A stretch of DNA of 53,682 nt from a virus, in the IMG/VR virus record IMGVR_UViG_3300031825_000171, positions 1 through 53,682 of that record; one strand, written 5' to 3'. Made by a program: the position numbers and the translations under genes. Below, piece by piece: positions 169-44,330 of the stretch. The notes below the pieces were generated by a model. The model ran no database searches, was not told where the DNA came from, and saw only the letters and a program-made list of their open reading frames with translations. Each line of letters begins with the position of its first letter. The first letter of the stretch is position 1.

Positions 169-171
169 CAA

Positions 172-1470: not shown

Positions 1471-1471
1471 G

Positions 1472-2320: not shown

Positions 2321-2343
2321 CTGTTATCCTTGTTATTGGGAAT

Positions 2344-2364
2344 AAAAAAACCGCCCGGAGGCGG
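2344..2364 (-). terminator. intrinsic terminator ahead of the tail fibre gene
   Basis: On the minus strand a CCGCC-TCCG-GGCGG hairpin is followed by a run of seven T. It lies between the 674-residue ejection protein gene and the tail fibre gene. It is conserved at 45871-45891. It would limit fibre expression unless late antitermination reads through. Its plus-strand face contains the GGAGG that serves the small ORF at 2369. Confidence 0.75.
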
Positions 2365-2368
2365 CTTT

Positions 2369-2518
2369 ATGAGATTTATTAAAGCTTTTATTGGTGCGGT
2401 GATACTTGCTGCGGTACTTACGGCACTGTTGCCGTTCCTGCCGTTCTGGCCGTGGGTAATTGTCCTGTTTCTTGTTCTCTTGATGCGAGTCCCGCCAAGT
2501 ACGAAGCAGCCCGAATAG
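2369..2518 (+). CDS. small hydrophobic membrane protein on the opposite strand
   Basis: This 49-residue plus-strand ORF starts with ATG seven bases after a perfect GGAGG. It encodes two closely spaced hydrophobic stretches (residues about 4-23 and 25-40, separated by PFLPFWPW) and a polar tail. Its 3' part overlaps antisense the last 100 bases of the 674-residue protein gene. The second prophage has a different membrane ORF at exactly the same place with the same start context (45896). Conservation of position and start but not of sequence suggests a real small gene under diversifying selection, perhaps a membrane-acting exclusion or immunity protein. No family was recognised. Confidence 0.5.
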   Translation: MRFIKAFIGAVILAAVLTALLPFLPFWPWVIVLFLVLLMRVPPSTKQPE

Positions 2519-5842: not shown

Positions 5843-7257
5843 TAGCGCCCCAATACGTTGGTTTGTTGCGGACGAAGACCGCCGGCCAGAGCGTAAAGCG
5901 CGGAGCCATACAGATTGTTCTTGAGCTCGCGTTCCTTGGCCTGTGCGTCCAGCAGCTTGGAGGCAACGCCGGATTGCAGGGTGAGTTGGTTATTCATCCC
6001 CGTCCCGAGAATATCCGCCCTGCCCCTGTCCCTTACCGTGTTGTAGTTGGTCAGATCCATGTTGCCGAAGCTCGACCCCGATACGCCACGGTCTTGCAGG
6101 CTTTGAGTAAGCCGCCCGTAACCTTGAGCCGTCGTTTCGTCGTAAGGATCGGTGAGAGACTTGAGATAAGGGGACTGATTACCCTGAAGTCCGTTATAGA
6201 TGCTGTCCAGCTTGGAGGTATCGAACGGGCCTTGATTCTTGGCATAGTTGATCGCTGCGAGAGACGGGGCGACAGCGAGGGTGCTTCCTAATAGGTCTTT
6301 CCCGCTACCTAGCAGTCCGCTCAGAAAATTAGATGACCCGCCCGAGTTTAATTCCCCGCTTAAGAGAGACTTCAGTGAGGAAAGCCCGCCTGGCAAAGAC
6401 CCGCCATTCATTAATGTATTTATCTGATCGAGTATGGTTCCCGTTCCAGAGGCGGACGTGCCGAATGGAATAGCCCCGTAGTCTCCGCTAATAGCCCCCA
6501 TGCTTTGCAACGCAGGACTTGCATCGATCGCAGCCCAATTTATAGATCCGTCAGCGTTCAACCCACCGAGACTGTCCGCCCACTGCTGAACGTCAGTAAG
6601 CCCGGAATTTCCAACGCTGTTACCCAGAATGTCATCGAAGAATCCCACATTACCCCCACTGCCGGCTGCACCGCTAAGTGCCCCCGCATCAGCCGCCATT
6701 CCTCCGGCATAGCCCGCCCCACCCTCTGCGGACACCCATCCAGCACCGGCACCCTCACCACCAGCAGCACCACCAGCGGCCGCACCAGCCGCTGCACCAA
6801 ATCCAGCGAGAATAGCCCCAAGGGCAAGTTTGCTCGTCCAGTGATCGGGCTCAGCAGTACCGAAATCAAACGGGTTTTGCTGCGCAGTCGTCTCGCCTTT
6901 ATAGAAACGCTGTCCGGTTCTCGGGTCAGTTTCCCACTGACCGTTACCGTATTGATAACGGTAGTAGTCATCGAGTGTTCTAATGCCCCTGCGCTGCGCT
7001 TCCTGACTGCGATCTAAGACGCTCTGATTAAGCCCGTTCGTGAGCTCAGGGACGTATCCCGCCTGAGTAGCGGCATCAAGGAATGCTCGTTGTTGAGCTT
7101 GGTAAAGATCGAAATCTTCGGTATTGATGCGCTGGCGCCCTTCATCTGTCGGACTAAACCAGCGGCCGGATTCGTCCTGAAACGCGCCGGGATTGGCCAT
7201 AGCCAGTAGGTCTTGCATCGTGTACTGACTCGGGAGCCTAAGGTCTGAAAGAGCCAT
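5842..7257 (-). CDS. glycine-rich ejection-type virion protein (471 aa)
   Basis: The protein has a Gly/Ala-rich hydrophobic stretch at about residues 145-200, suited to membrane insertion. Its C-terminal part is highly conserved, from GPFDTSKLDSIYNGLQGN to the end at NVLGR. The C-terminal 130 residues are practically identical to those of the 499-residue homologue at 49018, and the DNA matches too. The N-terminal 80 residues and a middle segment differ. It lies immediately downstream of the 173-residue gene with a TAATG overlap. By position and composition it corresponds to the first internal or ejection protein of podovirus-type phages. Confidence 0.6.
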   Translation of the reverse strand: MALSDLRLPSQYTMQDLLAMANPGAFQDESGRWFSPTDEGRQRINTEDFDLYQAQQRAFLDAATQAGYVPELTNGLNQSVLDRSQEAQRRGIRTLDDYYRYQYGNGQWETDPRTGQRFYKGETTAQQNPFDFGTAEPDHWTSKLALGAILAGFGAAAGAAAGGAAGGEGAGAGWVSAEGGAGYAGGMAADAGALSGAAGSGGNVGFFDDILGNSVGNSGLTDVQQWADSLGGLNADGSINWAAIDASPALQSMGAISGDYGAIPFGTSASGTGTILDQINTLMNGGSLPGGLSSLKSLLSGELNSGGSSNFLSGLLGSGKDLLGSTLAVAPSLAAINYAKNQGPFDTSKLDSIYNGLQGNQSPYLKSLTDPYDETTAQGYGRLTQSLQDRGVSGSSFGNMDLTNYNTVRDRGRADILGTGMNNQLTLQSGVASKLLDAQAKERELKNNLYGSALYALAGGLRPQQTNVLGR

Positions 7258-7778
7258 TAGTTCCCCCTCCCGCGGACGGAGTACAGGTATTCGCTCTCGT
7301 CAGACTGCCCGAGGAAATACAGCAGCTCATAGAGCTTGAGATGGTCAGGTAGTGTCATTTTTTCTTTTTGTGTCCTGACGAGGATGATTCCGGTTTTCTT
7401 GGAGCCGCGCAGCATGTTCAAAAACGCCACGCTCCCCCTGAGTGTGTTTCTCCTGCTCGCCCACTTGAAGAACACGCCCTTTACCTCAACGATCATCCCG
7501 ATCGTGTTCGTGCCCATTAATGCTATCGGTCCATGACCTGACGAAAAGCTTTTGTTCTTGTCGTCAATGATCCACGTCTGCTGATACGGACTTTCTTCTA
7601 TGGCTTTAACAAATTCCTCTTGTGAAAGACCTTGAGGAATGGGGAAGGAACCAGCCTTATAAGCGGCCCAGAGAATCCCCATGTCCTTCGAGTATTGCTC
7701 GCCATCGAGTATTTCCAGATGACGTATAACTGGCCTTCCTGACTTAAAAAGTCGTTCCCTGCGTTCCTTGGGCGTCAA
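7257..7778 (-). CDS. virion-associated protein (173 aa), possibly GNAT-like
   Basis: This protein is nearly identical to that at 50517. It begins with a TTG whose TTGA overlaps the stop of the 523-residue gene. The core carries alternating strands such as GPIALMGTNT, GMIVEVKGVFFKWASRR and GIILVRTQ, a pattern reminiscent of GNAT acyltransferase folds. Such folds are known for small virion proteins next to the ejection proteins (the T7 gp13 position). Enzyme activity is not shown by any motif, so a structural or assembly role is as likely. Confidence 0.45.
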   Translation of the reverse strand: MTPKERRERLFKSGRPVIRHLEILDGEQYSKDMGILWAAYKAGSFPIPQGLSQEEFVKAIEESPYQQTWIIDDKNKSFSSGHGPIALMGTNTIGMIVEVKGVFFKWASRRNTLRGSVAFLNMLRGSKKTGIILVRTQKEKMTLPDHLKLYELLYFLGQSDESEYLYSVRGRGN

Positions 7779-9346
7779 GCAAGCTCCACGTTATCCACCT
7801 GCCACGTCTTAGTCGTCAGCGCGCTAAACGTCGCCGAAGCAGCCGTACCCCTTCCAACTTGGGAGAAGTTTTGATGGCTGATCCGGTCAACGAACGAAAA
7901 GCCTTGATTGAAGTAATTAGCACCACCGAAATAGATCGGACCACCGAAGTAAACTCCGGTATCGCTAGACGGCGGACCCTTGAGCGTCACACTGGCCGCA
8001 CTCGTGTTGTATTCGTCAGCCCAGTCAACAGAGACGCTAAAGCTCACTTCATTCATGCGACGATACTGAACATTCCCACGGGTTATATGTCGGACGTTAC
8101 TCTCGTAAAGTCGGGTCTTTCTTATAAGCTGAATGGACGATGCCCCAGCATCTCCACTCGTTCCTGTTCCGTTCATATCGAACACGCGCCCATCGGAAGC
8201 GCCGAAATAAACGGTTGTCTCAGTCGTTCCCGGCCGGCGCATGAACTTAGCTGCGGAAGTATTAAACCCAGCCGAGTCTTCTGTTCTGTAAACCGACCAC
8301 GGAGAAAGCTTCGCCCTTTCTCCCTTCTCGCCTATCAACGCACCAGAAAATAAGATGTCCTTGAACAGCACCAAGACTTTAGAAGTCAGGAAGAAAAATA
8401 CCTTCTGGTTCTGCTGGTCATAAATCGCTATGCAACCCGTTAGATTCTTAACCGTCGTCGGTATCCAACGTGATAAATCGTCAGCAGCCACATCGCCATA
8501 GTTTTGCGTCGAGACGAGGCTATCTATGTTCCCGCCTTTTTTCATGTACACGATGTCGTTGCCGGTCGATACCATGGATTCGGTACCAACCGCCTGAGAG
8601 CCGGGGTAGAAGTTGTCCCACTTGTAAGTACTGGGACTCGTCCCCGAGAGCTTGAACAGCGACCCCTCGACGGTGGAGATAATCAAGTCACCAGCTAAAG
8701 TCTTAGCGACCCCGTTTATGGGTCTAAGGTCTGGCGAAAGCATGTAAAACGCTTCCAGACCTGTGCTGAAAGACCCGCCGCCGTCTGTAGTTGGACCGCC
8801 TCTTTTCGTCGTGTCGTAGGAAGTCGGGTCTTCAAACGCGCTCGCCACCATCAAATGCGGCGTGTCACTTCCAGCGGTTACATTGAACAGCCACACCCTA
8901 CCGTTATGCACAATCCCGTATTTCGCATACAGGGTAGAGCCCAATCCAGTTGTGATTGCGCTAAAGGTCGTGCCGTCCCACTTGGAAACTGCTGTTAGCT
9001 TGGCAAGGTCCGTAATGACCAGATAATCACCAAGCGACCAGTATGTGTCTCTTAACTGAGATGAGGCATCACAACTTCCTTTGCTCGTCCACGTCGTAGA
9101 GCCATCCCAGAGATAGACCGTGTTACCAGACTGAACAAGCGTAGTTTCAGAGTCATTACGCTTAACGAGCTGCATGAGCCCTCGTATATCACCCGCATTC
9201 GTAGCCGTGCCTTTGAGGTCGACCGGCGCTCGAGGTATGAGCTTGTTAGAGTCTTTGGAAAGATCGAAGTTATAAGACCCAGAGGCAGCTTCGTTGATGT
9301 CAGGCTGTTGCTGCTCGTTAATACCCCCACCAAAGAATACTTTCAC
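7775..9346 (-). CDS. tail tube / head-completion protein (523 aa, T7 gp12 or P22 gp10-like position)
   Basis: This beta-rich protein of 523 residues has many short WDG, YLWDGST and FGASDGRVFD repeats that suggest a propeller-like fold, as in podovirus tail-nozzle and stabilisation proteins. It follows the 235-residue adaptor gene with a GTGA overlap (GTG start) and has an equal-length, nearly identical homologue at 51035. Position after the adaptor and before the ejection proteins fits a tail tubular B or nozzle component that closes the connector. The assignment comes from gene order, length and repeat pattern. Confidence 0.65.
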   Translation of the reverse strand: MKVFFGGGINEQQQPDINEAASGSYNFDLSKDSNKLIPRAPVDLKGTATNAGDIRGLMQLVKRNDSETTLVQSGNTVYLWDGSTTWTSKGSCDASSQLRDTYWSLGDYLVITDLAKLTAVSKWDGTTFSAITTGLGSTLYAKYGIVHNGRVWLFNVTAGSDTPHLMVASAFEDPTSYDTTKRGGPTTDGGGSFSTGLEAFYMLSPDLRPINGVAKTLAGDLIISTVEGSLFKLSGTSPSTYKWDNFYPGSQAVGTESMVSTGNDIVYMKKGGNIDSLVSTQNYGDVAADDLSRWIPTTVKNLTGCIAIYDQQNQKVFFFLTSKVLVLFKDILFSGALIGEKGERAKLSPWSVYRTEDSAGFNTSAAKFMRRPGTTETTVYFGASDGRVFDMNGTGTSGDAGASSIQLIRKTRLYESNVRHITRGNVQYRRMNEVSFSVSVDWADEYNTSAASVTLKGPPSSDTGVYFGGPIYFGGANYFNQGFSFVDRISHQNFSQVGRGTAASATFSALTTKTWQVDNVELA

Positions 9347-10050
9347 CTGTACACTGCCCCGTATCTACGGCAAGGGTTTTGCCCCTTGATGAGCTTAAGC
9401 AGCGTGGCATACGCAGTTTGATAAGTACGATCCTTTTCCAGTACCGCAGCGATATCAATCTCGTTTTTCACATCCTCCCAAGCGAACTTGAACCGACGCG
9501 AGCACATTTCCGTGAATGAGTAATTCTCTTCGTCGTTATGAAAAGGCAGGGTATCCGAAGAAGCGGAAACCATGACGGAACCCTCGTAATCGTATGTCCA
9601 CTGATCGCCGTTTTCAGAAGACGAAGGAACTTGAAAAAATCCAACCTTTTTAGTACTGGTCGGCTCCCAATAGAACCAAAGAGGATCGCCATATTGCGTG
9701 GCATAGTCGTAGTACGTAATTTGCAGACCTTCAAGACCGCCGGCATATTCGTAAATCTGCCGATTATCCGCAGCTCTGTAGAAATGCGGATACCCGTAAA
9801 AGCGGGTGAAGTCCGCTGCTAGAGCATACGTTCTCTGCTCAGTGACAAAGGTTACTGAGCCAGTCGTCTTTCTCTCGGAAGGGATAAGACGCTCGGCAAT
9901 CAACTTCACGAGTTCATCCTGAATCGCCACTACAGCGAGATTCAGCGATGCGTTGTGCTGCGTATCCGACAGGGTCAGGACTAAATCGGTATCCCCCCTG
10001 ATAATGGCGTTCTTACGCAGAATTCTGTTGATTGCCTCTAGCAATGTCAT
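9343..10050 (-). CDS. head-tail adaptor / tail tubular A-like protein (235 aa)
   Basis: This 235-residue protein lies two genes below the capsid. It has a helical N-terminus (LLEAINRILRKNAII), a mixed alpha/beta middle with FYRAADNRQIYEY and WFYWEPTS, and a helical C-terminus (FAWEDVKNEIDIAAVLEKD). This fits gatekeeper or adaptor proteins of short-tailed phages (T7 gp11 or P22 gp4 type) that dock under the portal. The homologue at 52603 has the same length and is nearly the same. The start overlaps the upstream stop as ATGA. Confidence 0.6.
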   Translation of the reverse strand: MTLLEAINRILRKNAIIRGDTDLVLTLSDTQHNASLNLAVVAIQDELVKLIAERLIPSERKTTGSVTFVTEQRTYALAADFTRFYGYPHFYRAADNRQIYEYAGGLEGLQITYYDYATQYGDPLWFYWEPTSTKKVGFFQVPSSSENGDQWTYDYEGSVMVSASSDTLPFHNDEENYSFTEMCSRRFKFAWEDVKNEIDIAAVLEKDRTYQTAYATLLKLIKGQNPCRRYGAVYR

Positions 10051-10340
10051 ACCATCTCCACGGTCCCGAACTTAGCCCTTAGCGCATCCAATAGAAGATG
10101 CTGCATACCCTGCCTGTTCTGCTGAGAGCCGAGCATCGTCCCGGTTATGTTTGTCTTGAATGTGAAGCTGTATTCGTTGCCGTCGATCCAGACGGACACG
10201 GCGATTTCGTTGCTTCTTTTTCGTGGGGCTTTGGGTTGCTGCGGTAGCTTGATTTCAGTTGTGGCTACAGCCTCTTGAATATCAGTCCTGCGCCCCGCCT
10301 TTGCTTCGTACCGCAGCCTTGCCTTATCGAACTCGGACAT
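10047..10340 (-). CDS. small conserved structural-operon protein (97 aa)
   Basis: This small protein has a Lys/Arg-rich N-terminus, KLPQQPKAPRKRSNE in the middle and a beta-hairpin segment (VSVWIDGNEYSFTFKTNI). It lies between the capsid gene and the adaptor gene and is almost identical to the copy at 53307. Its ATG follows directly on the 3' arm of the hairpin at 10342-10363, so translation may depend on the folding of that hairpin. A head-completion or decoration role is possible from its place; no family was recognised. Confidence 0.6.
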   Translation of the reverse strand: MSEFDKARLRYEAKAGRRTDIQEAVATTEIKLPQQPKAPRKRSNEIAVSVWIDGNEYSFTFKTNITGTMLGSQQNRQGMQHLLLDALRAKFGTVEMV

Positions 10341-10341
10341 A

Positions 10342-10363
10342 AAGCCCCATGAAAAAGGGGCTT
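10342..10363 (-). terminator. hairpin directly after the capsid gene
   Basis: On the minus strand AAGCCCC and GGGGCTT form a 7-bp stem with an 8-base loop and a short TTT tail. It sits between the capsid stop and the next start codon. It is exactly conserved at 53602-53623. Position and form resemble the partial terminator that follows the capsid gene in T7-like phages, which keeps capsid mRNA high relative to downstream genes. The T tail is short, so it could also act as an RNA stabiliser or processing site. Confidence 0.5.
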
Positions 10364-10392
10364 ACCGAAGCCAGCCCCAGTTGAACTACGGA

Positions 10393-11475
10393 TTACAGCT
10401 TGCTTGCGCCGCTGCGGATTTTGCTGAGCCAGTTTCCGTTGAGAATCTCGCCGATCCACCACGATTTCCACGCGAGCGAACCAAACTCATTAAACGGATC
10501 AGCCGCACCCGACGAACCCGGCTTGTGGTAGATGATTTCCACCGCAGGCGGGTTTTTCGGGTTGTACATCTCGGCAGAGGTTGTCGCATGCGTGTTACCC
10601 AGACCCACCGAGCCGACCGCTTCCTTGCCGTAGATATACGTGCTGTAAACGTCGTTGAGGATACTGGACGCACCACGCAGACCCGTCGCCGTGGTCGTAC
10701 CGGCAGACGTAGAGACCGGGATTATCTCAGTCGAACACCAGCGAACCCCACCAACTGCACCGAATTCAAACGGCATGGTATCGGTGTAACCGCCGTACTG
10801 TTCGACAGGGATAAAGCCCGTCAGACCGCGAATGTCCTCTTCCACGTCAACATGCGCGATACCGTAGTAGCTCGCCCGCACCGGAGACGTCCCGATGTTG
10901 GTAGAGCCGTAGGTATCAGACGTGAACTTCATGGCACTGTTGCGATTAAGCTGGTTAACGGCGTACTTGATGTCTGTCAGCGTTATGGCTGAAGTCACGT
11001 TCGTATCCGCCGTTCCGCCACCAACGGCACCATTGGCGTAACGCACCAGGGAGGCGCCGGAGTAGATGGTCTCCATCAGCACGTTCAGCGACTCGCCCGC
11101 ATTCGCCCCCAACGTGTCCAGGAACTTGGCGGCACGCATGTTCATCTGCAGGAGGTCGATTTCTTCCGACAGGGCGATTGCATTGCCCTTCTTCAGAATC
11201 GTCGCCGTAACCGTGCTAATAGTCGGAAGGACCGTGCTACGGGTGGGGAGGGTCGTTGCGCCCGTCAACTCGCTAAGAGTCGCAGTTGCAACCGCCAGAT
11301 TGTCGATGCGCTCCCACTTAACAGAGGCTGTCGAGCCGTTCTTTTCCAACGTCCCCGCGAGAGTCCCGTTGTAGAATGGGAGTTTCTTGCGAGCCGCCGA
11401 AAGCAGGCCCTTCATCAACTGGAAATTAACGCCAAGAGCGACGTTAGATGCAGTGCTAGAAACGAGGTAAGGCAT
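10393..11475 (-). CDS. major capsid protein, N4-gp56 family
   Basis: This 360-residue protein contains features of N4 gp56-type capsid proteins (HK97 fold). These are an N-terminal segment with repeated SxxxVLPTISTVT elements, SEEIDLL in the middle, and the diagnostic IRGLTGFIPVEQYGG segment followed by GAVGGVRW. It lies between a scaffold-like gene upstream and small head genes downstream. It is flanked by a terminator before the scaffold gene and a hairpin after its own stop, which is usual for the most strongly expressed virion gene. The second prophage's copy is cut off by the right edge. Confidence 0.9.
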   Translation of the reverse strand: MPYLVSSTASNVALGVNFQLMKGLLSAARKKLPFYNGTLAGTLEKNGSTASVKWERIDNLAVATATLSELTGATTLPTRSTVLPTISTVTATILKKGNAIALSEEIDLLQMNMRAAKFLDTLGANAGESLNVLMETIYSGASLVRYANGAVGGGTADTNVTSAITLTDIKYAVNQLNRNSAMKFTSDTYGSTNIGTSPVRASYYGIAHVDVEEDIRGLTGFIPVEQYGGYTDTMPFEFGAVGGVRWCSTEIIPVSTSAGTTTATGLRGASSILNDVYSTYIYGKEAVGSVGLGNTHATTSAEMYNPKNPPAVEIIYHKPGSSGAADPFNEFGSLAWKSWWIGEILNGNWLSKIRSGASKL

Positions 11476-12261: not shown

Positions 12262-12465
12262 TTACTTGCCGGTTAGCAACTTAAAGAGAAGGTCGAAACC
12301 ATCCTGCCGGCCGGATTGATATTTAAGTTCCTCGATAACAGCGTTGTTCGCCTCTATTGAACCAGCGGGGCGGTAGGCTGGAACCACCGGACGGCTTTTG
12401 TGCATTGCGTCCATGATTTCCTGAAACTCCCTCGTTTCCCGCAACTGCTTTAACAGTTCCTTCAA
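12262..12465 (-). CDS. small protein between portal and scaffold (67 aa)
   Basis: This 67-residue mostly helical protein starts with TTG, whose TTGA overlaps the portal stop codon. AAGGAG precedes the start at good spacing, so translation is coupled to the portal gene. It contains HKSRPVVPAYRPAGS. Small proteins in this slot are common in podovirus late operons but their role is not established. No family was recognised. Confidence 0.6.
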   Translation of the reverse strand: MKELLKQLRETREFQEIMDAMHKSRPVVPAYRPAGSIEANNAVIEELKYQSGRQDGFDLLFKLLTGK

Positions 12466-14492
12466 GCGGTCTCCTTGCTAGTGGCGGCTTCCTGCATCGC
12501 CTGTTCCGGTATCTGTTGAGCTTCAATGAGTGTCTTAACGGTCTGCGCTTCGATAAGGTCAATCTCAGCAGCGGCTTTCTTTGCAGCTAAAACTTGCTCG
12601 CGACTCTGACCGGCCATGTCCGATTGCATCTCAACAGAACTCTTACGGGCGTCTACTTGCAATTCAGCAACCGCAAGTTTCTCCGTGGATTGCAACTCGG
12701 CTGCAGCGATCCTCTCTCTCGACTGAATCTCTGCGGCCTTCACCTGAGCGCCCGACTTAAGCTGCTGGTTCTCAGTCTGCAATTGCTGCATCGCCTGCTG
12801 CATCTGCTGCAATTGCTGTTGAACCTCAGGCGGTATCTGCGGGCCTTCGTCCACTTGAACGAACTGCTCCGGATTTTTAAGCCCCGCGTCCCGATAAGTC
12901 TGGAGCATGATGTCAGTGGCTTTAAGCTTCGGCGCAAACAGCGGGCTTCCCGAGAAAAACGCAGTAGCAGCCCCGACTCGCTGAGTCCTCTGTTCTTCAC
13001 CCAGGAGACCGCGAGAGCCGACGACATCGAAGTGCGCGTTAGCCTGAATGTCCTTATTCGTCGCCCGTATGAAGTCAGGCGTAGACATTTCGGAGTTATA
13101 GAACGTGTACTCCGTCATGTTCTTTCGGTTAAGCTCGTGCTGCATATAAAGCCACGGCCTTAACCCGCCTTCTTCCAGCATTCCAACAAACCCAACCGTG
13201 CGAACCTCCGCGCCTTGCTGAGTCTTGTTAACTTCTGTGGCCGTCTGCCGATCGGAATTCACAACCCCGGTACGCAGGGAAGAAACGCCGGTTCCCTCCT
13301 GCATCTGGCGCAAGCCCATTTGCAACGCCTCAAGCGCCCATTTCGGATCACCTATATCAAGAACGGTCATACCCTTGCCCATACTTTTGGTCGGCGTCTT
13401 TGCTCCGGGGGCAATCGTCGGTCCATCGTTAGCAACATAATCAGGATCATTACCGTCATACTCAACAGGCGGCTGGACTTTGAGGGCAGAAGCGTCAATA
13501 AAGTTATTGGCAGAGATAGTCGTTATCTTCTGCATCGGAGACTGCTTAATGATAGGCGACGTATAGTATGGGTCGCGGATATCCTGCCTCTCATAGCCTC
13601 CGTATATTATGGAAGGGTAAGGAAGCTCATTCGGAGCCATGTAGACAATGACGCCGTTCGCAAGGATCGCAAACGAGTTGGGGAAATACATATCCCCGTC
13701 GTCTCGATCGATGTTCAGATCGCCGTACCACTTCGTCAGCTTTACGTCTTTGGTCTGAACCTCCCCGTTCTTGTGTTCCTCGTCGGGGATCTTGGAAAGG
13801 CGGTTGGGCATCCAACCGTTACCCTTTGCAATCCTCTTCAGTTTCCACAGCGGCATGTACTCATTGATAAGCATCGACCCCGTATAGAACAGGTTCGTTC
13901 CGATCACCGATGGAGATTGATCGGGGTAGGCATTCCACATCGAGACGGGTTGCCATACTGGAGCAGAGACTTGCTTAAGCTTCTGCCCGTCATACACCAT
14001 CATCTCTTTGGCGAACTTAGCTTCCGCCACAAACCCGCCGTGGTGCAGGGCTTCTTTAACCGAAAGACGAAAGCGCCCCTTAAAGCCGAAGTCCTTGTGT
14101 TGCTGCACCATGAGAGAACGCAACAGACCATCGGCAATACGCTGCTTCTGCTCGGGTACGCGGGTCTGCCCCATTTCCTTGTTTAGTTCTACGTGCGGCT
14201 CGAACCAGTTCTCATCCGGGAACGTAATACGCATTACGTCATCGGTTATGATTTCCGAAGCCTTGGAGAGCTCACCAAGCTCAAAAGCAGACTGCCACGC
14301 AGCCTCTACAGGCATACCCGGCGTGACCTTCTGCAACGGGTTCATGGCGATTTGGCGGTCAACCTCCCTCCACTTTTCTTCGTGGTTTTTGCGGAATTGC
14401 GACTTCGACCGCGTGGAAAGCTCGTCGTTGATATACGTTTCGAGCTTCTTCCAGTCCGCAGAAACGATCCGCCTATTTTTAGGTTCAGCCAA
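12462..14492 (-). CDS. portal protein
   Basis: This 676-residue protein lies directly after the large terminase gene. It has the helical N-terminus, an alpha/beta body with WFEPHVEL, and a C-terminal region rich in Gln and Glu that forms a long coiled coil (QQQLQQMQQAMQQLQTENQQ). Size and order fit the dodecameric portal of short-tailed phages, with the coiled coil as a barrel that reaches into the capsid. The start appears to be TTG, two bases after the terminase stop codon. Confidence 0.85.
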   Translation of the reverse strand: MAEPKNRRIVSADWKKLETYINDELSTRSKSQFRKNHEEKWREVDRQIAMNPLQKVTPGMPVEAAWQSAFELGELSKASEIITDDVMRITFPDENWFEPHVELNKEMGQTRVPEQKQRIADGLLRSLMVQQHKDFGFKGRFRLSVKEALHHGGFVAEAKFAKEMMVYDGQKLKQVSAPVWQPVSMWNAYPDQSPSVIGTNLFYTGSMLINEYMPLWKLKRIAKGNGWMPNRLSKIPDEEHKNGEVQTKDVKLTKWYGDLNIDRDDGDMYFPNSFAILANGVIVYMAPNELPYPSIIYGGYERQDIRDPYYTSPIIKQSPMQKITTISANNFIDASALKVQPPVEYDGNDPDYVANDGPTIAPGAKTPTKSMGKGMTVLDIGDPKWALEALQMGLRQMQEGTGVSSLRTGVVNSDRQTATEVNKTQQGAEVRTVGFVGMLEEGGLRPWLYMQHELNRKNMTEYTFYNSEMSTPDFIRATNKDIQANAHFDVVGSRGLLGEEQRTQRVGAATAFFSGSPLFAPKLKATDIMLQTYRDAGLKNPEQFVQVDEGPQIPPEVQQQLQQMQQAMQQLQTENQQLKSGAQVKAAEIQSRERIAAAELQSTEKLAVAELQVDARKSSVEMQSDMAGQSREQVLAAKKAAAEIDLIEAQTVKTLIEAQQIPEQAMQEAATSKETA

Positions 14493-14494
14493 AT

Positions 14495-15955
14495 TTAGCC
14501 CCAGTTCGTAGCGCCTCTAGCAACGTGGCGTTTTGGTCTTTTTATTGTTTCGGTGCGCGCGTGACGCAGCATCATATGGGCGTAGCGGGATGCGCTTATC
14601 AAGTCGTCCCTGAGCTTCACGAGCCTCATTTGCTCGTCACGGTGATACGTCCTCTGCTCCTGCAGCCATTGCCGACAGGTGCTAAAAACCTTCCATCGCC
14701 CCGTCTCCATACGCTCAAACATGGCAAGAATGGAGGCCTCTACAGAATTCCCGCCCTCCCCCTCTTTTTGCCCCTGCTTGGGGTCCGGAGGGTTGGTCGC
14801 CTTGGCGGGAAGCATGTTCAGGCCCTCTTTCGAGTACGCCTTTACTAATTCGTCGCCGGTGCCCTTCTCTGTGTTCAATCCGTCGTGCGGCCAGGCGGTC
14901 GGAATCCACGCCCCCCAAGGCTGTATAGCGGCAGCGTGTATAGCCGGTATCGCCCTTGATTCCCGATACTCCGCGACAAGATAAACAACGTCTGCGTCAC
15001 GGTCCCACGCGAGGCTCGCCGCGGCTGCGGGATGGTCCCAACCAAAGTCGATACCGTTGATGCGCGGCCAGTGCCTTGGAATTTCGAAAGGATCGATAAC
15101 GAGCGATTCTTCGGTAAACGGGAACACCAGACCCCTTCCGTAAGAGGGAACGCCCCTGCGCCGCATTTCTCGTTCGTGAGCAGGGAAACCAGACTCCAAT
15201 TGCTTAGCTTCTTCGGTTAACTGACCGTCCTTAACCAAGTGCCCCGCGTCATCCCAGGAAGCTTGTATAAGCGCCTGCCCGGGGCCGATGTGGTTCATGA
15301 AGTTGTTCACCACTTCGGTTAATCCAGACTCCGGCGTGAACGTGATGTAGAGAATCCCGTTCATGGAAATCGTCGCCCGCAAGTACTGCGACCAAATATC
15401 CTGCGGCGGCTCTTCGTCTAGCCATCCAAGGTGAATACGATGGCCCATGTGTTTCTTCGCCCCCTGCTCATAAGCGCGAAACATGAGCTTCGACCACCCA
15501 CCGGAGACATGCTTAACCAGCACCGTGTCGTAAGCATTCGGCACCCCGGGCTTTGAAGTCCGCTTGCCGATGCAATCAACAGGGATCGTTCCAGATCCCA
15601 AAGCTTGGGGTTCGTTAGGGTCGCCAAATAGCGTTTTCTGGCAGATGTCCCTAACCGCTTCGTTCGTCATGCCCCCGATCATTGCGACTATCGGATGCTT
15701 AAATCTGTGACCGTCCCACCAATCCGGATATCTTCCAGTTGCGTGTATCGCCGTCTCGAAACCGCCGCACCAGGTCTTGCCAGTACCATTCCCCGCCATC
15801 AAAACCCGTTGCGCAGCGGGCTTGTCTGTCTGGTGACCCTTAGCGTTGTGAAACTGCTTCTGATACTGATAGGGCGCGTAATATTCGAGACGGTGATACT
15901 TTCGTCGCCTCTCCATCAATAGGACTAGGCGGGCTAATTCCTCTTGGGGATTCAA
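14495..15955 (-). CDS. terL: terminase large subunit
   Basis: This 486-residue protein is the packaging motor ATPase and nuclease. The ATPase half carries Walker A GNGTGKT (about residues 55-61) and Walker B LGWLDEEP (about 176-183). The nuclease half begins around residue 290 with INGIDFGWDHPAAA, supplying a metal-binding Asp of the RNase H-like fold. The first start is a TTG at 15955 with GGAAAAGA upstream; an ATG at 15916 is an alternative. It is separated from the proposed small subunit at 21213 by about 5 kb of inserted sugar- and methyl-transferase genes, an unusual arrangement. Confidence 0.92.
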   Translation of the reverse strand: MNPQEELARLVLLMERRRKYHRLEYYAPYQYQKQFHNAKGHQTDKPAAQRVLMAGNGTGKTWCGGFETAIHATGRYPDWWDGHRFKHPIVAMIGGMTNEAVRDICQKTLFGDPNEPQALGSGTIPVDCIGKRTSKPGVPNAYDTVLVKHVSGGWSKLMFRAYEQGAKKHMGHRIHLGWLDEEPPQDIWSQYLRATISMNGILYITFTPESGLTEVVNNFMNHIGPGQALIQASWDDAGHLVKDGQLTEEAKQLESGFPAHEREMRRRGVPSYGRGLVFPFTEESLVIDPFEIPRHWPRINGIDFGWDHPAAAASLAWDRDADVVYLVAEYRESRAIPAIHAAAIQPWGAWIPTAWPHDGLNTEKGTGDELVKAYSKEGLNMLPAKATNPPDPKQGQKEGEGGNSVEASILAMFERMETGRWKVFSTCRQWLQEQRTYHRDEQMRLVKLRDDLISASRYAHMMLRHARTETIKRPKRHVARGATNWG

Positions 15956-16033: not shown

Positions 16034-16567
16034 CTATCGCAGCTTGCAGCGGTGTCCCTTGGGCTTGTTGTGCATAACGAGCGGGCAAATCATTTCTCCC
16101 TCTACCTTGTCCCGAATGTCGCAAATAATCGTTTTCGCTTTGACTCGGTAAGTCTCTAGCGGGTAATGCCAGCCCCAGGACAATAGAGAGATAACCAAAT
16201 CCGCCTCTATGTCCTGAGTGCCGATGTCATACCAGCGGTCTACCGTCACACCGTTGGAAGCAAGGAACGCGGTAGCAACCTCTCGATTGCTAAACGGCTT
16301 CATGTCCTTCTCGAAACCTCCGCGCCAATCCTCTTTTGGGCCGTCACCATCAAGCAGGTATAACTTCGCGTCGGGATATTTCCGCTTGAGCAGAATGTCT
16401 ATCCCCGCCATGCCGCATCCGATGTCCAGGATGCTTTCGCACGATTCGGGCAAGTGCGGCTCTATGCCGGCAAAGTCATCCCGCAGGCTTTTTATGTACT
16501 CGTCACCGTCTTTGGTGTGCGTGCGGTGTAACGCGACCCACTCAAGAACCTCGGGCGATAGCTTCAA
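16034..16567 (-). CDS. class I SAM-dependent methyltransferase (177 aa)
   Basis: This short Rossmann-type methyltransferase has motif I SILDIGCGMAGID at about residues 44-56, an acidic strand end LLDGDG, and a later DLVISLLSWGWHYP segment. It starts at a TTG inside the end of the preceding glycosyltransferase-like gene (26-base overlap). This places it in one transcription unit with the transferases upstream and terL downstream. By context it probably methylates a sugar or a glycan made by the neighbouring transferases. The substrate is not determined by the sequence. Confidence 0.7.
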   Translation of the reverse strand: MKLSPEVLEWVALHRTHTKDGDEYIKSLRDDFAGIEPHLPESCESILDIGCGMAGIDILLKRKYPDAKLYLLDGDGPKEDWRGGFEKDMKPFSNREVATAFLASNGVTVDRWYDIGTQDIEADLVISLLSWGWHYPLETYRVKAKTIICDIRDKVEGEMICPLVMHNKPKGHRCKLR

Positions 16568-17192
16568 GGATGATGTCTGCGTGCTGTTGTTGAATATGCG
16601 ACGTGTCAGACAAAAGCTTCATTGCTTTAGCGCCGGCTCCGTTCACCCTTGCTCTTTGGTACGTCTCGTCGGACTCCGACTTCCCGTACTTGAAATGCAA
16701 ATGTTCTACTTCCACGTCTTTAACCTGGATCAGCCGGCCGCACTTTTTTGCAACCTCAGAAACCCAGCCATCAGGCCCGAAGTGAGCAAAGATGTCAGGC
16801 CATGGACCGATAAGCTTTACCCACTTCATCGACATAACGAAGTGATTGCAATTCTGCTTCGCGTGGTCCGTGCCGTAGACGATAGCCAGATCATCCTTCG
16901 GCATCTCGTTTAGAAGCTTTTCATCCCAATCCCGAGTTCTAAACTCGATGTCATCCGACCCGATCATGAAATAGGGCGTCTCGACCTTCGCAATCATGGA
17001 CAGGAGAGCTTTAGAACTCCCCACCGATAGTCCTATCGTGACGCCCTCGTATTCATCCTTCTTCGGGTCGTCCTCATCCACATACGACATCAGGTGAAAC
17101 GGATTGCGAGCGGTCCTTAGAGCGGAATCCACAGCGTTTCTAAACCGCTTCGGTCGTCCTCTTGTCGCAATGAGTAGCGATAGCCTCAACAA
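16542..17192 (-). CDS. glycosyltransferase family 2-like protein (216 aa)
   Basis: The N-terminus LRLSLLIATRGRP is the first strand and loop of GT-A glycosyltransferases. A DD pair in MIGSDDIEFRTRDWD (residues 77-90) sits where the metal-binding DxD is expected. A later FGPDGWVSEVAKKCG segment is typical of the acceptor side. It overlaps both neighbours (51 bases with the GT9-like gene, 26 with the methyltransferase), showing tight coupling. It starts with TTG after GGAGATGG. The likely activity is transfer of a sugar from a nucleotide donor; the acceptor is unknown. Confidence 0.65.
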   Translation of the reverse strand: MLRLSLLIATRGRPKRFRNAVDSALRTARNPFHLMSYVDEDDPKKDEYEGVTIGLSVGSSKALLSMIAKVETPYFMIGSDDIEFRTRDWDEKLLNEMPKDDLAIVYGTDHAKQNCNHFVMSMKWVKLIGPWPDIFAHFGPDGWVSEVAKKCGRLIQVKDVEVEHLHFKYGKSESDETYQRARVNGAGAKAMKLLSDTSHIQQQHADIILEAIARGS

Positions 17193-17820
17193 CCATCTCC
17201 GGGGTTATGCGCTCCAAAGCCTGTCTACAATGAAGGCAGGGTGTTATGGATCCGCAGAAGTAAGATGCTTTGCACAGGTTGGTATGCGAGTCGTAGCCCA
17301 AGGTGTTAGGTCCGACCAATCCGCCCCACACCACGACAGCCGGCTTTCCTAAAGCAGCCGCCGCGTGGTGCATCCCTCCGTCCGTGCCTACAAATAAAAA
17401 AGCCCTCGATAAGAGGGCACAGGCGTCGCGGAATGACCGCGTTTCAAGCTGTCGGACGTTTCTTAGTCGCCGTCCTTTACCTTGAATCCACCTAATATCT
17501 GGAAGTGAATCGACAACCTTTTGCCAGTTGTCGAAGCCCCAATCCTTGTTTCCACCGAACGAGCCTTTAGTGTTCGGCTCGATATAAACGAAATCTGACT
17601 CAGACCATCGAAGCTCACCGGGAGAAAAGTAAATCTCTCCAGGTTCAGCCTTAAACGGCTTCCACGCCATACGTTCTCTCGTCGTCTTGGCATAGTCGAT
17701 ATACGGTCTGTTTCCCTTAATCGTCTTGACCCACACCCCATCGGGAACAATCTTCTTCGATATACGAGGGTTGTGGTCAAAGACTTCCGACCACTTGATC
17801 GAACCACCGTCCCCGACCAT
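17140..17820 (-). CDS. glycosyltransferase family 9-like protein, N-terminus out of frame
   Basis: The C-terminal half has the GT9 (heptosyltransferase-type) nucleotide-sugar site FVGTDGGMHHAAAALGKP at about residues 143-160, followed by AVVVWGG. The first ATG in frame is at 17820. Upstream, the same frame still encodes the usual GT9 beginning (AIGYGDEILVTAIVRKAH) but meets a TAA at about 17897 with no usual start. An ATG at 17939 with GGGG upstream opens a different frame that would enter this one by a one-base shift. The gene is therefore either frameshifted, starts at an uncommon codon, or is shortened. Two CxxC-like cysteine clusters lie near the C-terminus. Confidence 0.6.
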   Translation of the reverse strand: MVGDGGSIKWSEVFDHNPRISKKIVPDGVWVKTIKGNRPYIDYAKTTRERMAWKPFKAEPGEIYFSPGELRWSESDFVYIEPNTKGSFGGNKDWGFDNWQKVVDSLPDIRWIQGKGRRLRNVRQLETRSFRDACALLSRAFLFVGTDGGMHHAAAALGKPAVVVWGGLVGPNTLGYDSHTNLCKASYFCGSITPCLHCRQALERITPEMVVEAIATHCDKRTTEAV

Positions 17821-17948
17821 GACGGGCTTTCCGGTCTTTAAATGCGCCTTCCTGACAATCGCCGTAACTAGGATTTCGTCGCCGTATCCGATGGCTTAAC
17901 CTCTAACTTCGTTCCGCAAAACGGGTTCCTGCTTTCCATTTTCGACCC

Positions 17949-17984
17949 CAAAAATGAAACACCCCCTTTTTACGGGGGGTGTTT
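17949..17984 (-). terminator. strong intrinsic terminator inside the transferase island
   Basis: On the minus strand AAACACCCCC and GGGGGTGTTT form a 10-bp stem with an 8-base loop followed by CATTTTT. It lies in the 171-bp gap between the sialyltransferase-like gene and the GT9-like gene. It divides the island into two transcription units unless antiterminated. Confidence 0.8.
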
Positions 17985-18111
17985 TGCGGAGGGCCGAGTC
18001 ACCCATTACCCGCATTCTCAGCGATAGACTTATCCGCGACGCGCCTTCACCAACTAAGCCACCCCGCCGCCCGGCGGGAACTGTCATTGGGTTGCAACGC
18101 AAGAGTTTCTA

Positions 18112-18684
18112 TCACGGCTCGAATCCACCTATTGTAACGCCGCATTCCCGCTCGATGACAGGAAGCATCCTGTTTTCCGCCTTCCAGTCATGACGGGATA
18201 CCCAGCGCCCCTTGTTCGCCTTGTGATACTCCAGCCGGGCAGGCTCCAGCAGATTATCGAAGCCGACCAATCGTATTTCTTCGGGCTTCAAAAACTCCGC
18301 TGCGCAGATAATCGCAAACATGCCTAGCGAGAAATTCGGAACCTCGTCACCGCTCAGTTCCTTAAAAATCGCGTTCCAAGTCAAAAACAGTTGCAGCGGT
18401 ATAGCCAACGGCGCTTGGGCGCGACTTCTAAAGCTCGCCTCGGTCGCCGGGTTCCAAGTGCCTTTTTTCGGCTGGCCCCAATATTCTTTGGGAACTCTCC
18501 TGTCATCCAGCATCACCGGTAGAGTCTCGGTAGAACTCGCCATGTAGTCACAGCGCTTACCGTAGTCCTCTGGGGCTTGCCACGATGGTTCCTTGAGGCG
18601 CACAACAATGTTCTTATCAATCTCCGCGCCCCATTTTTTTCCAACCGGGCTAGTGCCGTGTCCTATTATCGTCACGACTGACAA
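18112..18684 (-). CDS. putative sialyltransferase-like (GT29/GT42-type) protein
   Basis: The N-terminal VTIIGHGTSPVGKKWG resembles the nucleotide-binding loop (GNGPS type) of GT42/GT29 sialyltransferases. It is followed by NIVVRLK, comparable to the strand where these enzymes have VVRCN. Near residues 118-142, LGMFAIICAAEFL then EEIRLVGFD matches the second donor-site block of that fold. The protein is 190 residues, short for the family. It begins with TTG after AAGGATT and overlaps the 254-residue gene upstream by 35 bases. Family placement is by pattern only. The donor could be CMP-sialic acid or another nonulosonate. Confidence 0.45.
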   Translation of the reverse strand: MSVVTIIGHGTSPVGKKWGAEIDKNIVVRLKEPSWQAPEDYGKRCDYMASSTETLPVMLDDRRVPKEYWGQPKKGTWNPATEASFRSRAQAPLAIPLQLFLTWNAIFKELSGDEVPNFSLGMFAIICAAEFLKPEEIRLVGFDNLLEPARLEYHKANKGRWVSRHDWKAENRMLPVIERECGVTIGGFEP

Positions 18685-19414
18685 GCTTGTAATCCTTCAA
18701 AAGCAGCCCGCGTGACTTGTCTCCAACAATAGCCGCGCTTATCCAAAATTCTTTATCAAAACGCCGCCTGAAGTGGCCGCGCCTCATGTGCACACGCGGG
18801 CTGGCATGAGTTCCGCCAACATGGGATGATTCATCGACCAGATTCGGCTTTAACACCGCTAAAGTCTTGTATCCAATAAGCGGGAAACGCCCCGAGCGAA
18901 TTCGCTTATCGTTCAGTTTGCGTGATGGGGCGTTTTCTATAATCCGCTGATCTGGATGGTTCAGTGTGCACAAGAACCACGATAGAGATTCTGCAACTCG
19001 CTCGCAAATACGATCACCGGAGAAACCGCCGCCCGCAAGCTTTGGCAATGACACCGCGCCGTCTTCCGTTAGATAGAAGGCGCGGAAATGCACTTGATCT
19101 GTGATCACGTACGCGGCAACAAATATGCCGGTGCCAATCGTTGAGCAAAAACAAAAAGCGTCTCCGCTATCATCGTATAGCCGCACAAGTAACGCGTCGT
19201 AAGGAAGGCGCAAATAAGATGTGTGGTAATCGTGATCGGATCGCGGCAAGCGAGAGCTAAACTTTACGCATTCATCGAACAGGCTTACGCACGCATTATG
19301 CAGATCGGCGACTGCATCTGTTCTGGCTGGAACTGATGTAATAACGTGCCTGAATGTATGAAACTCCACCAGAATCTCCCTAGAAAATCCAGCTACGGGA
19401 TTATTCTGCCTCAC
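18650..19414 (-). CDS. phage protein with conserved RRGH-type C-terminal motif (254 aa)
   Basis: The protein's function is not known. The C-terminal third contains HASPRVHMRRGHFRR, then WISAAIVGDKSRGLLLKDYKL. This is a block known from uncharacterised phage and prophage proteins, with regularly spaced His and Arg that could bind nucleic acid, metal or a phosphate group. The N-terminal two thirds are mixed alpha/beta with a LRLPYDALLVRLYDD segment. It lies inside the transferase island, sharing an overlap with the sialyltransferase-like gene, so it may not be functionally tied to sugar transfer. The start is a GTG. Confidence 0.5.
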   Translation of the reverse strand: MRQNNPVAGFSREILVEFHTFRHVITSVPARTDAVADLHNACVSLFDECVKFSSRLPRSDHDYHTSYLRLPYDALLVRLYDDSGDAFCFCSTIGTGIFVAAYVITDQVHFRAFYLTEDGAVSLPKLAGGGFSGDRICERVAESLSWFLCTLNHPDQRIIENAPSRKLNDKRIRSGRFPLIGYKTLAVLKPNLVDESSHVGGTHASPRVHMRRGHFRRRFDKEFWISAAIVGDKSRGLLLKDYKLVSRDDNRTRH

Positions 19415-19490
19415 GGCATGACTAGGGGCGGGACAAAATTGTCCGAATTACTTTGCTACCAACTTAGGAACGCACTTGTCCAACATCCGC

Positions 19491-20588
19491 TTAATTACCT
19501 CGATTTGCTCCGGCGTAAGCATTCCAAGTGTCATATACCCTCACAGAACCATACCAAGGCGTACGACCCGGAGTCGCCTTGCAAATCCACTTCCACGGTA
19601 AAAGTGAGCGACGATCCGGCAACGCCGTCATCGGGTCCGCAATAATCACATCCACAGGAACCCCTAGAGCGCCCGCAAAATGCGCGACGGAGGTTGAGAC
19701 GGACACAACCCCATCCAGATTCGACAACAGCCCCAAAACGCCTTCTATGTCGTCTCTGAGGTCGAGTCCTTCGGGACCGTCAGGGGCTTCTTCATCGTAT
19801 TCTCGGTCGTACTGCAAAGACACCGCACGAATTCCGCTTGCATAGCGGCCAAGGATTCGCCTTTCAACCCCCTGAGCGCCGCGCCAACTAATTCCCGTAT
19901 AGCCTCTGTACTCTCGGAAACGCTCAACTTGCTCACTATCGGCCCTTAAATAAGGTGTCCCGGGGAAATGACGCAAATCGTGCCGGAAGTTCCGCGGGAG
20001 ATCCACCAACGGCGTCCACGCATCGCAACCTTCCGGGACTTCCTGGATTTTCCGTTCCCCACCTTCAATCTGAGCGGACCGCGTCTCAACACCAAAGGAC
20101 CGCGCAAAAATTCTCTGTAATCTCGGATCACACTCGATGACGACGGAATCCACCAACCTTTGAACGTCAGGGACACACGACGCGAAGAAAACCTCGTCCC
20201 CTATCCCCTGGTCTCCGATGATCCAAAGCTTCTTGACCCTAGACCCATCCCACCGGGGAATGGGGAATGGGTTCTTATCCATCCAGTGCCACATCGCCGC
20301 GTGGTAAGCAGACTGATACTCCCAGCCCGACCAGTCCGAATAATCCCCCAAATAAAAACGGGCCTGACAACGCGCCCACTTCGCATTAGGCGGCTCGTCA
20401 TGGACTAGATGCAGCTCACCCCTGCGGTATGCCTTCTCAAGCTTCCTAATCGCGTTCTGGCGCTTTAGATGGCTGGCACCAGTGGCTTTCTCAAGGACCA
20501 GGCGAATGGAACGGTAGTCAATCTCTCGAAACTGCGACCCCTGCGTGCTTTGAGTCCCGAAAGGGAGGAGGTGGGCACCTTTGTTCAT
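19491..20588 (-). CDS. GT9/GT41-like glycosyltransferase with helical N-terminus (365 aa)
   Basis: Residues 1-110 are helical and polar. The catalytic part begins at KKLWIIGDQGIGDEVFFAS (about 118-136), the glycine-rich loop of GT9 and TPR-linked GT41-like transferases. It continues to VVSVSTSVAHFAGALGVPVD (about 300-320), the matching donor-binding block. It is the first gene of the island as read on the minus strand. The pair of GT9-like genes, a GT2-like gene, a sialyltransferase-like gene and a methyltransferase in a row suggests assembly or decoration of a glycan, of unknown target. Confidence 0.6.
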   Translation of the reverse strand: MNKGAHLLPFGTQSTQGSQFREIDYRSIRLVLEKATGASHLKRQNAIRKLEKAYRRGELHLVHDEPPNAKWARCQARFYLGDYSDWSGWEYQSAYHAAMWHWMDKNPFPIPRWDGSRVKKLWIIGDQGIGDEVFFASCVPDVQRLVDSVVIECDPRLQRIFARSFGVETRSAQIEGGERKIQEVPEGCDAWTPLVDLPRNFRHDLRHFPGTPYLRADSEQVERFREYRGYTGISWRGAQGVERRILGRYASGIRAVSLQYDREYDEEAPDGPEGLDLRDDIEGVLGLLSNLDGVVSVSTSVAHFAGALGVPVDVIIADPMTALPDRRSLLPWKWICKATPGRTPWYGSVRVYDTWNAYAGANRGN

Positions 20589-20630: not shown

Positions 20631-20843
20631 TTATTCACTATTCAGCTTGAACATCGCGTGCGACAAAAACCCGATGATCGTCCAACGGTCTTTGAGTCCG
20701 GCGCATGCATAACTACACCCACTCACATCCTGCTCAAGCAGCAATATCCCAGTCGTCTCGCCACAACGAACGCGCGCCAATGCATCCTCCAAAACTCGCG
20801 CAACATCCGGGTCACGAGCTTTTTCAACCAGACTAACCAGCAC
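20631..20843 (-). CDS. small conserved phage protein (70 aa)
   Basis: This 70-residue protein begins with GTG after a GAGG at good spacing and overlaps the end of the upstream 38-codon gene by 11 bases. The layout VARVLEDALARVRCGETTGILLLEQDVSGCSY is characteristic of a small protein common in proteobacterial phages. Its function is unknown. Confidence 0.65.
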   Translation of the reverse strand: MLVSLVEKARDPDVARVLEDALARVRCGETTGILLLEQDVSGCSYACAGLKDRWTIIGFLSHAMFKLNSE

Positions 20844-21212: not shown

Positions 21213-21572
21213 TCACGCGGACTTGATGCCTGGGTCTTGCTTGGCCCGATCAGCCAGTAGCTTGGCGAGCAGGTCCGGGTATGCGTCGATAAGCTGCTGA
21301 AATCGTTGCAGAATATCGGCTTCCGTCAGTTTATCGTCGGGATTGACGTTAGTTTGCTCGACCGCGGACAAGGACGGGCGCAACTTGTCGTATCTCGCCT
21401 TTATGAGCGCAACCGCTCCACTGCTTATCTCTTTGATTTGCGCTTTCTCTTGGCAGGTAGGACATTGGAAGTGGCCGACGATCACAGCATCCATGTATGA
21501 CTCTATCCGCCCCAGCGATATTCGGTCTCTTTCCTGCTGAGTCTGGCCCGCTGGTTTCTTACGAGCGGCCAT
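21213..21572 (-). CDS. terS: probable terminase small subunit
   Basis: This 119-residue protein has a CPTCQEKAQ element, then SSGAVALIKARYDKLRPSLSAVE. The latter is typical of small-terminase proteins, in which ARYDKLRP and LSAVE follow the DNA-binding N-terminus. It ends with a helical tail (LQRFQQLIDAYPDLLAKLLAD). It has an AGGATACTAAAG leader before the ATG. Small terminases recognise the packaging site and usually sit directly next to terL. Here 5 kb of other genes lie between them. Confidence 0.6.
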   Translation of the reverse strand: MAARKKPAGQTQQERDRISLGRIESYMDAVIVGHFQCPTCQEKAQIKEISSGAVALIKARYDKLRPSLSAVEQTNVNPDDKLTEADILQRFQQLIDAYPDLLAKLLADRAKQDPGIKSA

Positions 21573-31228: not shown

Positions 31229-31438
31229 GTTGGGAGACCCGTCCGACCACGGCAATTTGTGACCCGGCGGGGCACTCCCCGGTAGCGACTGGCCTCGCTA
31301 CCGCGCCTCACCATCCCGCCGCCCATGCTTCTCTGATAGTGCACTAACCCGGAGGCGAAAGCCTCCCACTCCGACTCAATTCAAGCAATCGAAGTAAGCC
31401 CGGTTTATCCCGTTTCGTCCGCCTATGCAGGTTTTTCT
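31229..31438. other. intergenic region with two strong hairpins
   Basis: Two strong stems stand in the 280-bp gap before the repeat-protein gene: GGTAGCGA with TCGCTACC around six bases (31281-31302), and GGAGGC-GAAA-GCCTCC (31351-31366). Neither has a T tail. They may end the CI transcript through Rho or shield its 3' end from nucleases. The promoter at 31439 follows. Confidence 0.5.
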
Positions 31439-31467
31439 TGCATACCACAGTTTTTTCCTGTATCGTC
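31439..31467 (+). promoter_or_regulatory. second switch promoter (PL-like) for the rightward early operon
   Basis: TTGCAT, 17 bases, TATCGT, the same boxes as the Cro promoter. The flanking 40 bases match it with only about eight differences (GCAGGTTT, CTTGCATA, CACAG and TTTCCTGTATCGT are shared). The pentapeptide-repeat gene starts 40 bases downstream. CI and Cro should therefore control both early operons. Confidence 0.75.
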
Positions 31468-31506
31468 TCTCCAACGCTCACCACACGAGCGGCACAGGAG
31501 ACGGGG

Positions 31507-43309: not shown

Positions 43310-43435
43310 AATACGGGAGCTTGCTTGTGTGCTAGGCTATCCATGCTGCGTACGCGGCGGGAGGGCCTTCGCTTGGCATCGCTCGTTGATGCTGGGGGCC
43401 GCGACGGTTGCACCCGTTGCGGTCGCCCTCTCTTT
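43310..43435. repeat. 126-bp segment identical to 1-126
   Basis: Second copy of the exact repeat described at the left end of the window, lying between the lysis cassette and the methyltransferase of prophage B. This gives the register of the tandem unit, an offset of 43309 bp. Confidence 0.9.
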
Positions 43436-44328: not shown

Positions 44329-44330
44329 AC

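Follow-up and report, generated by a model that had tools for sequence, protein, structure and literature searches.

What do sugar-enzyme genes do between the terminase genes of a phage, and on what would their products act? The locus that raises this question is a block of six minus-strand open reading frames (ORFs) at 16034-20588 of IMGVR_UViG_3300031825_000171, an uncultivated virus record whose 53,682 bp were analysed as a whole (the window). The block, hereafter the island, has the large terminase subunit gene (TerL) on one side and a probable small subunit gene (terS) on the other. With moderate confidence we read the island as a gene cassette by which a podovirus clade glycosylates its virions, with the virion's own proteins as targets; the acceptor, the order of the sugars, the late timing and the role are parts of this reading that we infer. 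An initial annotation had described six genes here, two GT9-like, one GT2-like, one sialyltransferase-like, one class I methyltransferase and one RRGH-motif protein. The ORFs were confirmed, several of them overlapping (RRGH/SIA by 35 nt, GT9b/GT2 by 53 nt and GT2/MT by 26 nt). The island genes and their borders are as follows.

14495..15955, minus strand: TerL, large terminase subunit, downstream island border (Pfam Terminase_6C 1.9e-22 and Terminase_6N 3.7e-22; PHROG terminase large subunit)
16034..16567, minus strand: MT, probable class I S-adenosylmethionine (SAM)-dependent methyltransferase (Pfam MTS 0.0053, weak; motif ILDIGCGMAG)
16542..17192, minus strand: GT2, GT2-like (GT-A) glycosyltransferase with an invariant DD motif (PHROG 14945 glycosyltransferase 1.1e-28; Pfam GT2 0.009)
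17140..17892, minus strand: GT9b, heptosyltransferase-type GT9 (Pfam GT9 9.6e-8; start analysis)
18112..18684, minus strand: SIA, GT29-like sialyltransferase-fold glycosyltransferase (AlphaFold predicted local distance difference test (pLDDT) 94; Foldseek; homologue Pfam GT29; motif alignment)
18650..19414, minus strand: RRGH protein, inserted gene (no Pfam match; absent from nearest relatives)
19491..20588, minus strand: GT9a, helical N-terminus and GT9-type GT-B domain (AlphaFold pLDDT 86; Foldseek)
21213..21572, minus strand: probable TerS, upstream island border (position; clade members also carry this family upstream of GT9a)

The four sugar-transferase assignments hold, borne out by profile searches for GT9b and GT2 and by predicted folds for SIA and GT9a. 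The methyltransferase call retains its glycine-rich motif, ILDIGCG, but its profile match is weak, and the border named terS fits by position and as a conserved family although the window protein itself has no TerS profile match.

Distribution of the island in relatives

Sugar genes were present at this site in 43/43 scorable members of the TerL clade. On the TerL tree these 43 island records fell on one side of a single branch (Shimodaira-Hasegawa-like approximate likelihood ratio test (SH-aLRT) 99), with 16 island-less records outside it, a distribution that takes a single change. Many records had been recruited with island proteins, which biases island counts. Query bias alone does not account for the link to the TerL clade, because all 12 of the closest loci recruited with TerL only and having >2.5 kb upstream carried sugar genes (two pairs being near-copies); island-less loci in this TerL-only set started at ~50 % TerL identity.

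GT9a is the anchor gene of the site. In 39/39 de-duplicated records holding both genes it was co-oriented with TerL and located upstream of it, and the order terS-GT9a-TerL was observed in 25 of 26 records. Profile mapping gave a common plan of terS-GT9a-SIA-c4-(GMD, aminotransferase, GT2, FkbM, methyltransferase)-GT8-TerL-portal-head protein, where c4 denotes a protein that is conserved, has a DxD-like motif and matched no family. In one relative, L002, the order was GT9a-SIA-GT9b-GT2-MT-TerL, with neither RRGH nor a gap between SIA and GT9b, and an MT homologue 82 % identical to that of the window occupied the same place. GT9b and GT2 were 92-97 % identical between the window and L002 (GT2 97 %) but TerL only 64 %, indicating that sub-blocks have been exchanged. 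The ratio of non-synonymous to synonymous substitution rates (dN/dS) against L002 was 0.05-0.16 for GT2 (0.05), MT (0.14), GT9b and GT9a, and 0.15 for TerL; synonymous saturation barred a value for SIA. MT, GT2, GT9b and GT9a are under purifying selection, and since their dN/dS resembles that of TerL, the block is not a product of chance. The block does not move as a single piece detached from phage biology: it keeps its site and anchor gene, and the other genes turn over.

A second podovirus lineage (loci L067, L089 and L118-L170; type record MW202512.1) carried a GT9a-type gene, a methyltransferase and a GT8 gene among its head genes, with GT9a between the capsid and tail-stabilisation genes in 18/18 records holding all three markers. 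That comparable sets occur among head genes in two different places is our strongest argument, a positional one, and suggests a link to the virion. The initial annotation had proposed that the phage builds a glycan late in infection. The site fixed across the TerL clade and the similar set in the head cluster of the second lineage speak for this proposal, for a system to which RRGH probably does not belong. Judging from strand, overlaps and neighbours, the island genes would be transcribed with the late genes.

Predicted functions of the island enzymes

In Foldseek searches, the GT9a model matched a GT9 structure (3tov, 8.5e-6) and TibC (4rap, 1.3e-5), with weaker matches to SPY and EarP, both protein glycosyltransferases; lipopolysaccharide (LPS) heptosyltransferases scored nearly as high as TibC. 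Template modelling (TM) scores of GT9a to GT9 structures were just 0.31-0.44, and its likeness to TibC, one of the soluble bacterial autotransporter heptosyltransferases (BAHT, GT9), is therefore a fold-level lead from a predicted model. Though outside the family by sequence (10.9 bits vs the Pfam GT9 curated cut-off of 22), GT9a may, on its modelled fold, work like a GT9 enzyme, and its GxGDE motif was invariant across 22 homologues. TibC/BAHT protein heptosyltransferases carry iron-finger cysteines. Unlike TibC, GT9a has a helical N-terminus and no CxxC, its sole invariant cysteine being C74, so the iron-binding finger was not seen. Bacterial relatives of GT9a (Azospirillum, marine Alphaproteobacteria) lay outside any TerL/portal context, and only L171 fell in the phage clade. 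Large ORFs (up to ~2,200 amino acids (aa)) of Azospirillum and Niveispirillum hold GT9a-like domains, with tetratricopeptide repeat (TPR) proteins nearby (L174-L249).

The top 38 Foldseek matches of SIA were all sialyltransferases (TMq 0.54-0.69; best ST8SiaIII, 2.6e-6), as were all 34 structure matches with E up to 0.001. GT42 enzymes also matched the model, and the GT29/GT42 boundary is not sharp. The window protein itself had no direct Pfam family match; Glyco_transf_29 matched SIA homologues in 10/32 records (best 2.1e-10, L016). The L-like, S-like and VS (HxxxxE) motifs were kept, with G8, S12, R29, S119, G121 and H165 invariant and E170 nearly invariant across 20 homologues. SIA is thus similar in predicted fold and L/S/VS-like motifs to GT29 sialyltransferases (ST8SiaIII, ST6GalNAc2, ST3Gal1) and GT42 CstII, and we consider it a predicted sialyltransferase-fold glycosyltransferase. 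GT29 sialyltransferases take sialic acid from CMP-sialic acid.

GT9b passed the Pfam Glyco_transf_9 cut-off (32.1 bits vs 22) and matched structure chains of LPS heptosyltransferase I (1.9e-7) as well as TIGR02195 (1.3e-6). By sequence it resembles the LPS heptosyltransferases WaaC/WaaF (GT9), but it is shorter, far under the curated equivalog cut-offs and phage-borne. Homologues of GT2 in Streptomyces and Pelagibacter phages carry glycosyltransferase annotation, and MT is perhaps a sugar methyltransferase.

Sugar supply and pathway genes

Pathway genes were sought in 32 records, some of them fragments and none with a given completeness, so that absences from this set are suggestive. In searches whose positive controls worked, none of the records held Bac_transf (the initiating polyprenyl-phosphate transferase), a Polysacc_synt flippase, GtrA (PF04138; the flippase of gtr-type O-antigen conversion), NeuB- and NeuA-type genes or the thymidylate synthase family (PF00303); Tet/JBP (Tet_JBP) was also absent, in a search without positive control. 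A lipid-carrier route was rejected on the first three of these results and a sialic acid supply by the phage on the fourth, which, with its length of only 190 aa, also sets SIA apart from the GT29 and GT42 enzymes named above. Membrane segments were few, and this, together with the missing primer, flippase and GtrA, fits a cytosolic acceptor. Guanosine diphosphate (GDP)-mannose dehydratase-type (GMD) genes were present in nine records, and aminotransferase (DegT) and GDP-fucose synthase-like genes were present in relatives. No nucleotide-sugar synthesis genes of these types were found in the window, and sugar donors would therefore need to be supplied by the host.

Insertions in the window copy of the island

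The window copy differs from those of L002, L003 and L005 by the RRGH gene and by a short segment containing a terminator-like hairpin.

17893..18111, minus strand: inserted segment, ~220 bp, between SIA and GT9b (comparison with L002/L003/L005)
17957..17984, minus strand: strong intrinsic-terminator-like hairpin within the insertion (10-bp stem and T-rich tail; fold)

RRGH was absent from all three relatives, in which SIA directly adjoins GT9a. The C-terminal ~90 aa of RRGH matched hypothetical proteins of Proteobacteria plasmids and the rest was unmatched; no relatives were found among phages and viral contigs. The initial annotation had made RRGH part of the glycan system. We found nothing to link it with sugars, discarded it as a candidate sugar enzyme and place it probably outside that system.

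The segment at 17893-18111, on which the initial annotation was silent, was missing in the relatives, whose SIA and GT9b overlap. It had no homologue among the fetched loci or phage records and contained no recognised gene. By eye it looked tRNA-like, yet ARAGORN at normal settings and Rfam returned nothing credible, and a tRNA or known RNA was rejected. The insertion replaces the overlapping GT9b start of the relatives and removes the usual start codon. The GT9b homology frame reaches ~17892, an ATC codon, with no ATG, GTG or TTG before 17820; the first ATG, at 17820, sits downstream of the conserved GYGDE, and starting there drops the motif. An AGAGG lies 7 nt ahead of the in-frame ATC at 17892, where initiation would be possible but unusual. 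The insertion may have cost this genome its GT9b and may affect how GT2, MT and TerL are expressed, unless antitermination or an assembly fault is involved.

Virion glycosylation and alternative explanations

If the island glycosylates virions, its location inside the head and packaging cluster would have soluble enzymes made alongside the head proteins. GT9a would place the initial sugar on a cytosolic protein, probably the capsid or another head protein, in a TibC-like manner; this protein-acceptor idea draws on the modelled resemblance of GT9a to TibC and, more weakly, to SPY and EarP. Elongation or capping of the glycan would then fall to SIA, GT9b and GT2, and its modification to the methyltransferase. 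With relatives swapping the outer enzymes and some adding GDP-deoxysugar or aminosugar synthesis, the surface sugar would vary among phages, and the virion glycan might serve in shielding or adhesion. More tentatively, and with somewhat more doubt than belief, we propose that the head cluster holds a modular protein-glycosylation pathway with a constant initiating GT9a and swappable caps (the sialyltransferase-fold enzyme; in relatives, nucleotide-sugar synthesis).

Several observations count against virion glycosylation. The TM-scores of GT9a to GT9 structures are low; in this genome the ~220-bp insertion takes away the GT9b start and a strong terminator (17984-17957) interrupts the island. 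A Ser/Thr-rich acceptor was sought among the structural proteins of the window and no obvious acceptor tail was seen in the head proteins. LPS-core heptosyltransferases are likewise soluble and flippase-independent, which makes host LPS a possible target.

This last point leads to the main rival, which we judge unlikely, namely that the enzymes alter the LPS core or O-chain of the host late in infection, so that progeny avoid sticking to debris or other phages are excluded. GT9b resembles LPS heptosyltransferases, GT2, GT8, GMD and DegT are enzymes typical of LPS pathways, LPS-core enzymes are soluble, and the glycosyltransferases of pelagimyophages have been read in this way (PMC7029224). The lack of a Wzx-type flippase, a Bac_transf primer and GtrA argues in the other direction, though a core-modifying enzyme needs none of them, as does a position fixed among head genes in two lineages and not with lysogeny or early genes. 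A different proposal concerns only this genome, whose block could be decaying cargo, partly disabled by RRGH and the terminator segment; it is possible if rather doubtful, and is compatible with virion glycosylation across the clade. The missing standard start of GT9b before 17820 with GYGDE upstream of that ATG, the terminator, and RRGH inserted between GT9a and SIA all point towards decay, but the remaining island ORFs are all open, the low dN/dS speaks for function (albeit under longer-term selection), the AGAGG before the ATC allows rare-start initiation, and the metagenome-assembled contig may hold errors.

Glycosylation of phage DNA bases against restriction appears very improbable. Phage glycosyltransferases are able to modify DNA, according to the account of Pyle et al. 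2024 given in PMC12619734. The thymidylate synthase family, maker of hydroxymethyl bases, was nevertheless found in 0/32 records and Tet/JBP was missing too, and for DNA modification a position beside the packaging genes would be late; hypermodification through thymidylate-synthase enzymes was rejected on the first of these grounds. GT9 and GT29 are not known as classical base glucosyltransferase families. Least probable, and disfavoured, is the idea that the terS-terL interval is a recombination hotspot gathering genes without common function. RRGH would be one such insertion and the sub-blocks do recombine, as the contrast between GT9b/GT2 and TerL identities to L002 illustrates, yet the identified content of the site across the clade is overwhelmingly sugar enzymes, the GT9a anchor is constant and the order GT9a-SIA-c4 is frequent.

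Genome context

Beyond the island, the neighbouring head genes and one small ORF were annotated as follows.

10393..11475, minus strand: major head protein, candidate glycan acceptor (PHROG 1357 1.5e-39)
12462..14492, minus strand: portal protein (PHROG 332 9e-18, PHROG 1216 9.5e-12)
20631..20843, minus strand: small ORF, 70 aa, between probable terS and GT9a (ORF only; no Pfam/PHROG family with a significant match)

The portal gene begins 2 nt after TerL. One of seven aligned homologues of the probable TerS matched TerS phrog_641 (E 0.0099). PHROG searches of ten further homologues, a profile comparison with the gene directly upstream of TerL in island-less phages and a comparison with the packaging protein of phage DSL-LC06 gave no confirmation, and the gene at 21213-21572 is a probable TerS by position. 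Mechanical calling placed TTG starts at 14492, 15955, 16567, 17192 and 18684, those of TerL and portal among them.

The nearest annotated relative by TerL was 'Podoviridae sp. ct7QV12' (MW202713.1), and we therefore treat the phage as podovirus-like. An integrase gene at 40550-41593 suggests that it is temperate. Tail-module genes at one end of the window (1-10422) recur at the other (43310-53682), and the stretches that align show ~70-88 % nucleotide identity. Because complete-looking relatives span ~39-45 kb, the contig probably joins a genome of ~43.3 kb, circular or permuted, to ~10.4 kb of sequence derived from a related strain. A pentapeptide-repeat protein at 31438-32541 is coded by a 15-bp tandem array, and an 18-bp tandem repeat array lies inside an ORF at 33211-33525.

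Comparison with known systems

Virion glycosylation is described for the mycobacteriophages Che8 (gp110), Corndog (gp38) and Myrna (Freeman et al. 2023, as cited in PMC12363180, PMC11256854 and PMC12619734), and within the portions of the literature covered, its demonstration in phages is limited to a few mycobacteriophages. As far as those accounts go, the systems share phage-encoded glycosyltransferases, and virion structural proteins are here proposed as acceptors. The present case differs in being a podovirus multi-enzyme island between terS and terL with GT9, GT29-like and methyltransferase genes, nucleotide-sugar synthesis in relatives and a putative acceptor.

Individual components have been recorded elsewhere. 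Podoviridae sp. ct7QV12 carries GT9a, a methyltransferase and an aminotransferase at the same site, phage DSL-LC06 (OR003941.1) combines a homologue of GT9b with FkbM and a sialyltransferase gene, and TayeBlu (PMC12772287) has an annotated sialyltransferase; in all three, unlike here, the genes were annotated singly. The authors of DSL-LC06 raise a possible glycosylation system (PMC10611076). The glycosyltransferase-rich hypervariable region of pelagimyophages (PMC7029224) is likewise variable cargo in environmental phages, but it lies with the tail fibre genes of T4-like phages and its enzymes were interpreted there as host-surface modifiers. We found no description of a sugar island between terS and terL in a search limited to open-licence papers. 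Virion glycosylation is thus already known, from mycobacteriophages as far as the sources covered extend, and the fixed, modular terS-terL island is a new form.

Should the virion reading be correct, virions of clade members are predicted to bear a glycan, and the island would supply new, small glycosyltransferases. If the pathway is modular as proposed, with a similar core set in the second lineage, virion sugars would diversify among phages as O-antigens do among bacteria. Virion glycans would then be a common and variable phage trait affecting adsorption, particle stability and recognition.

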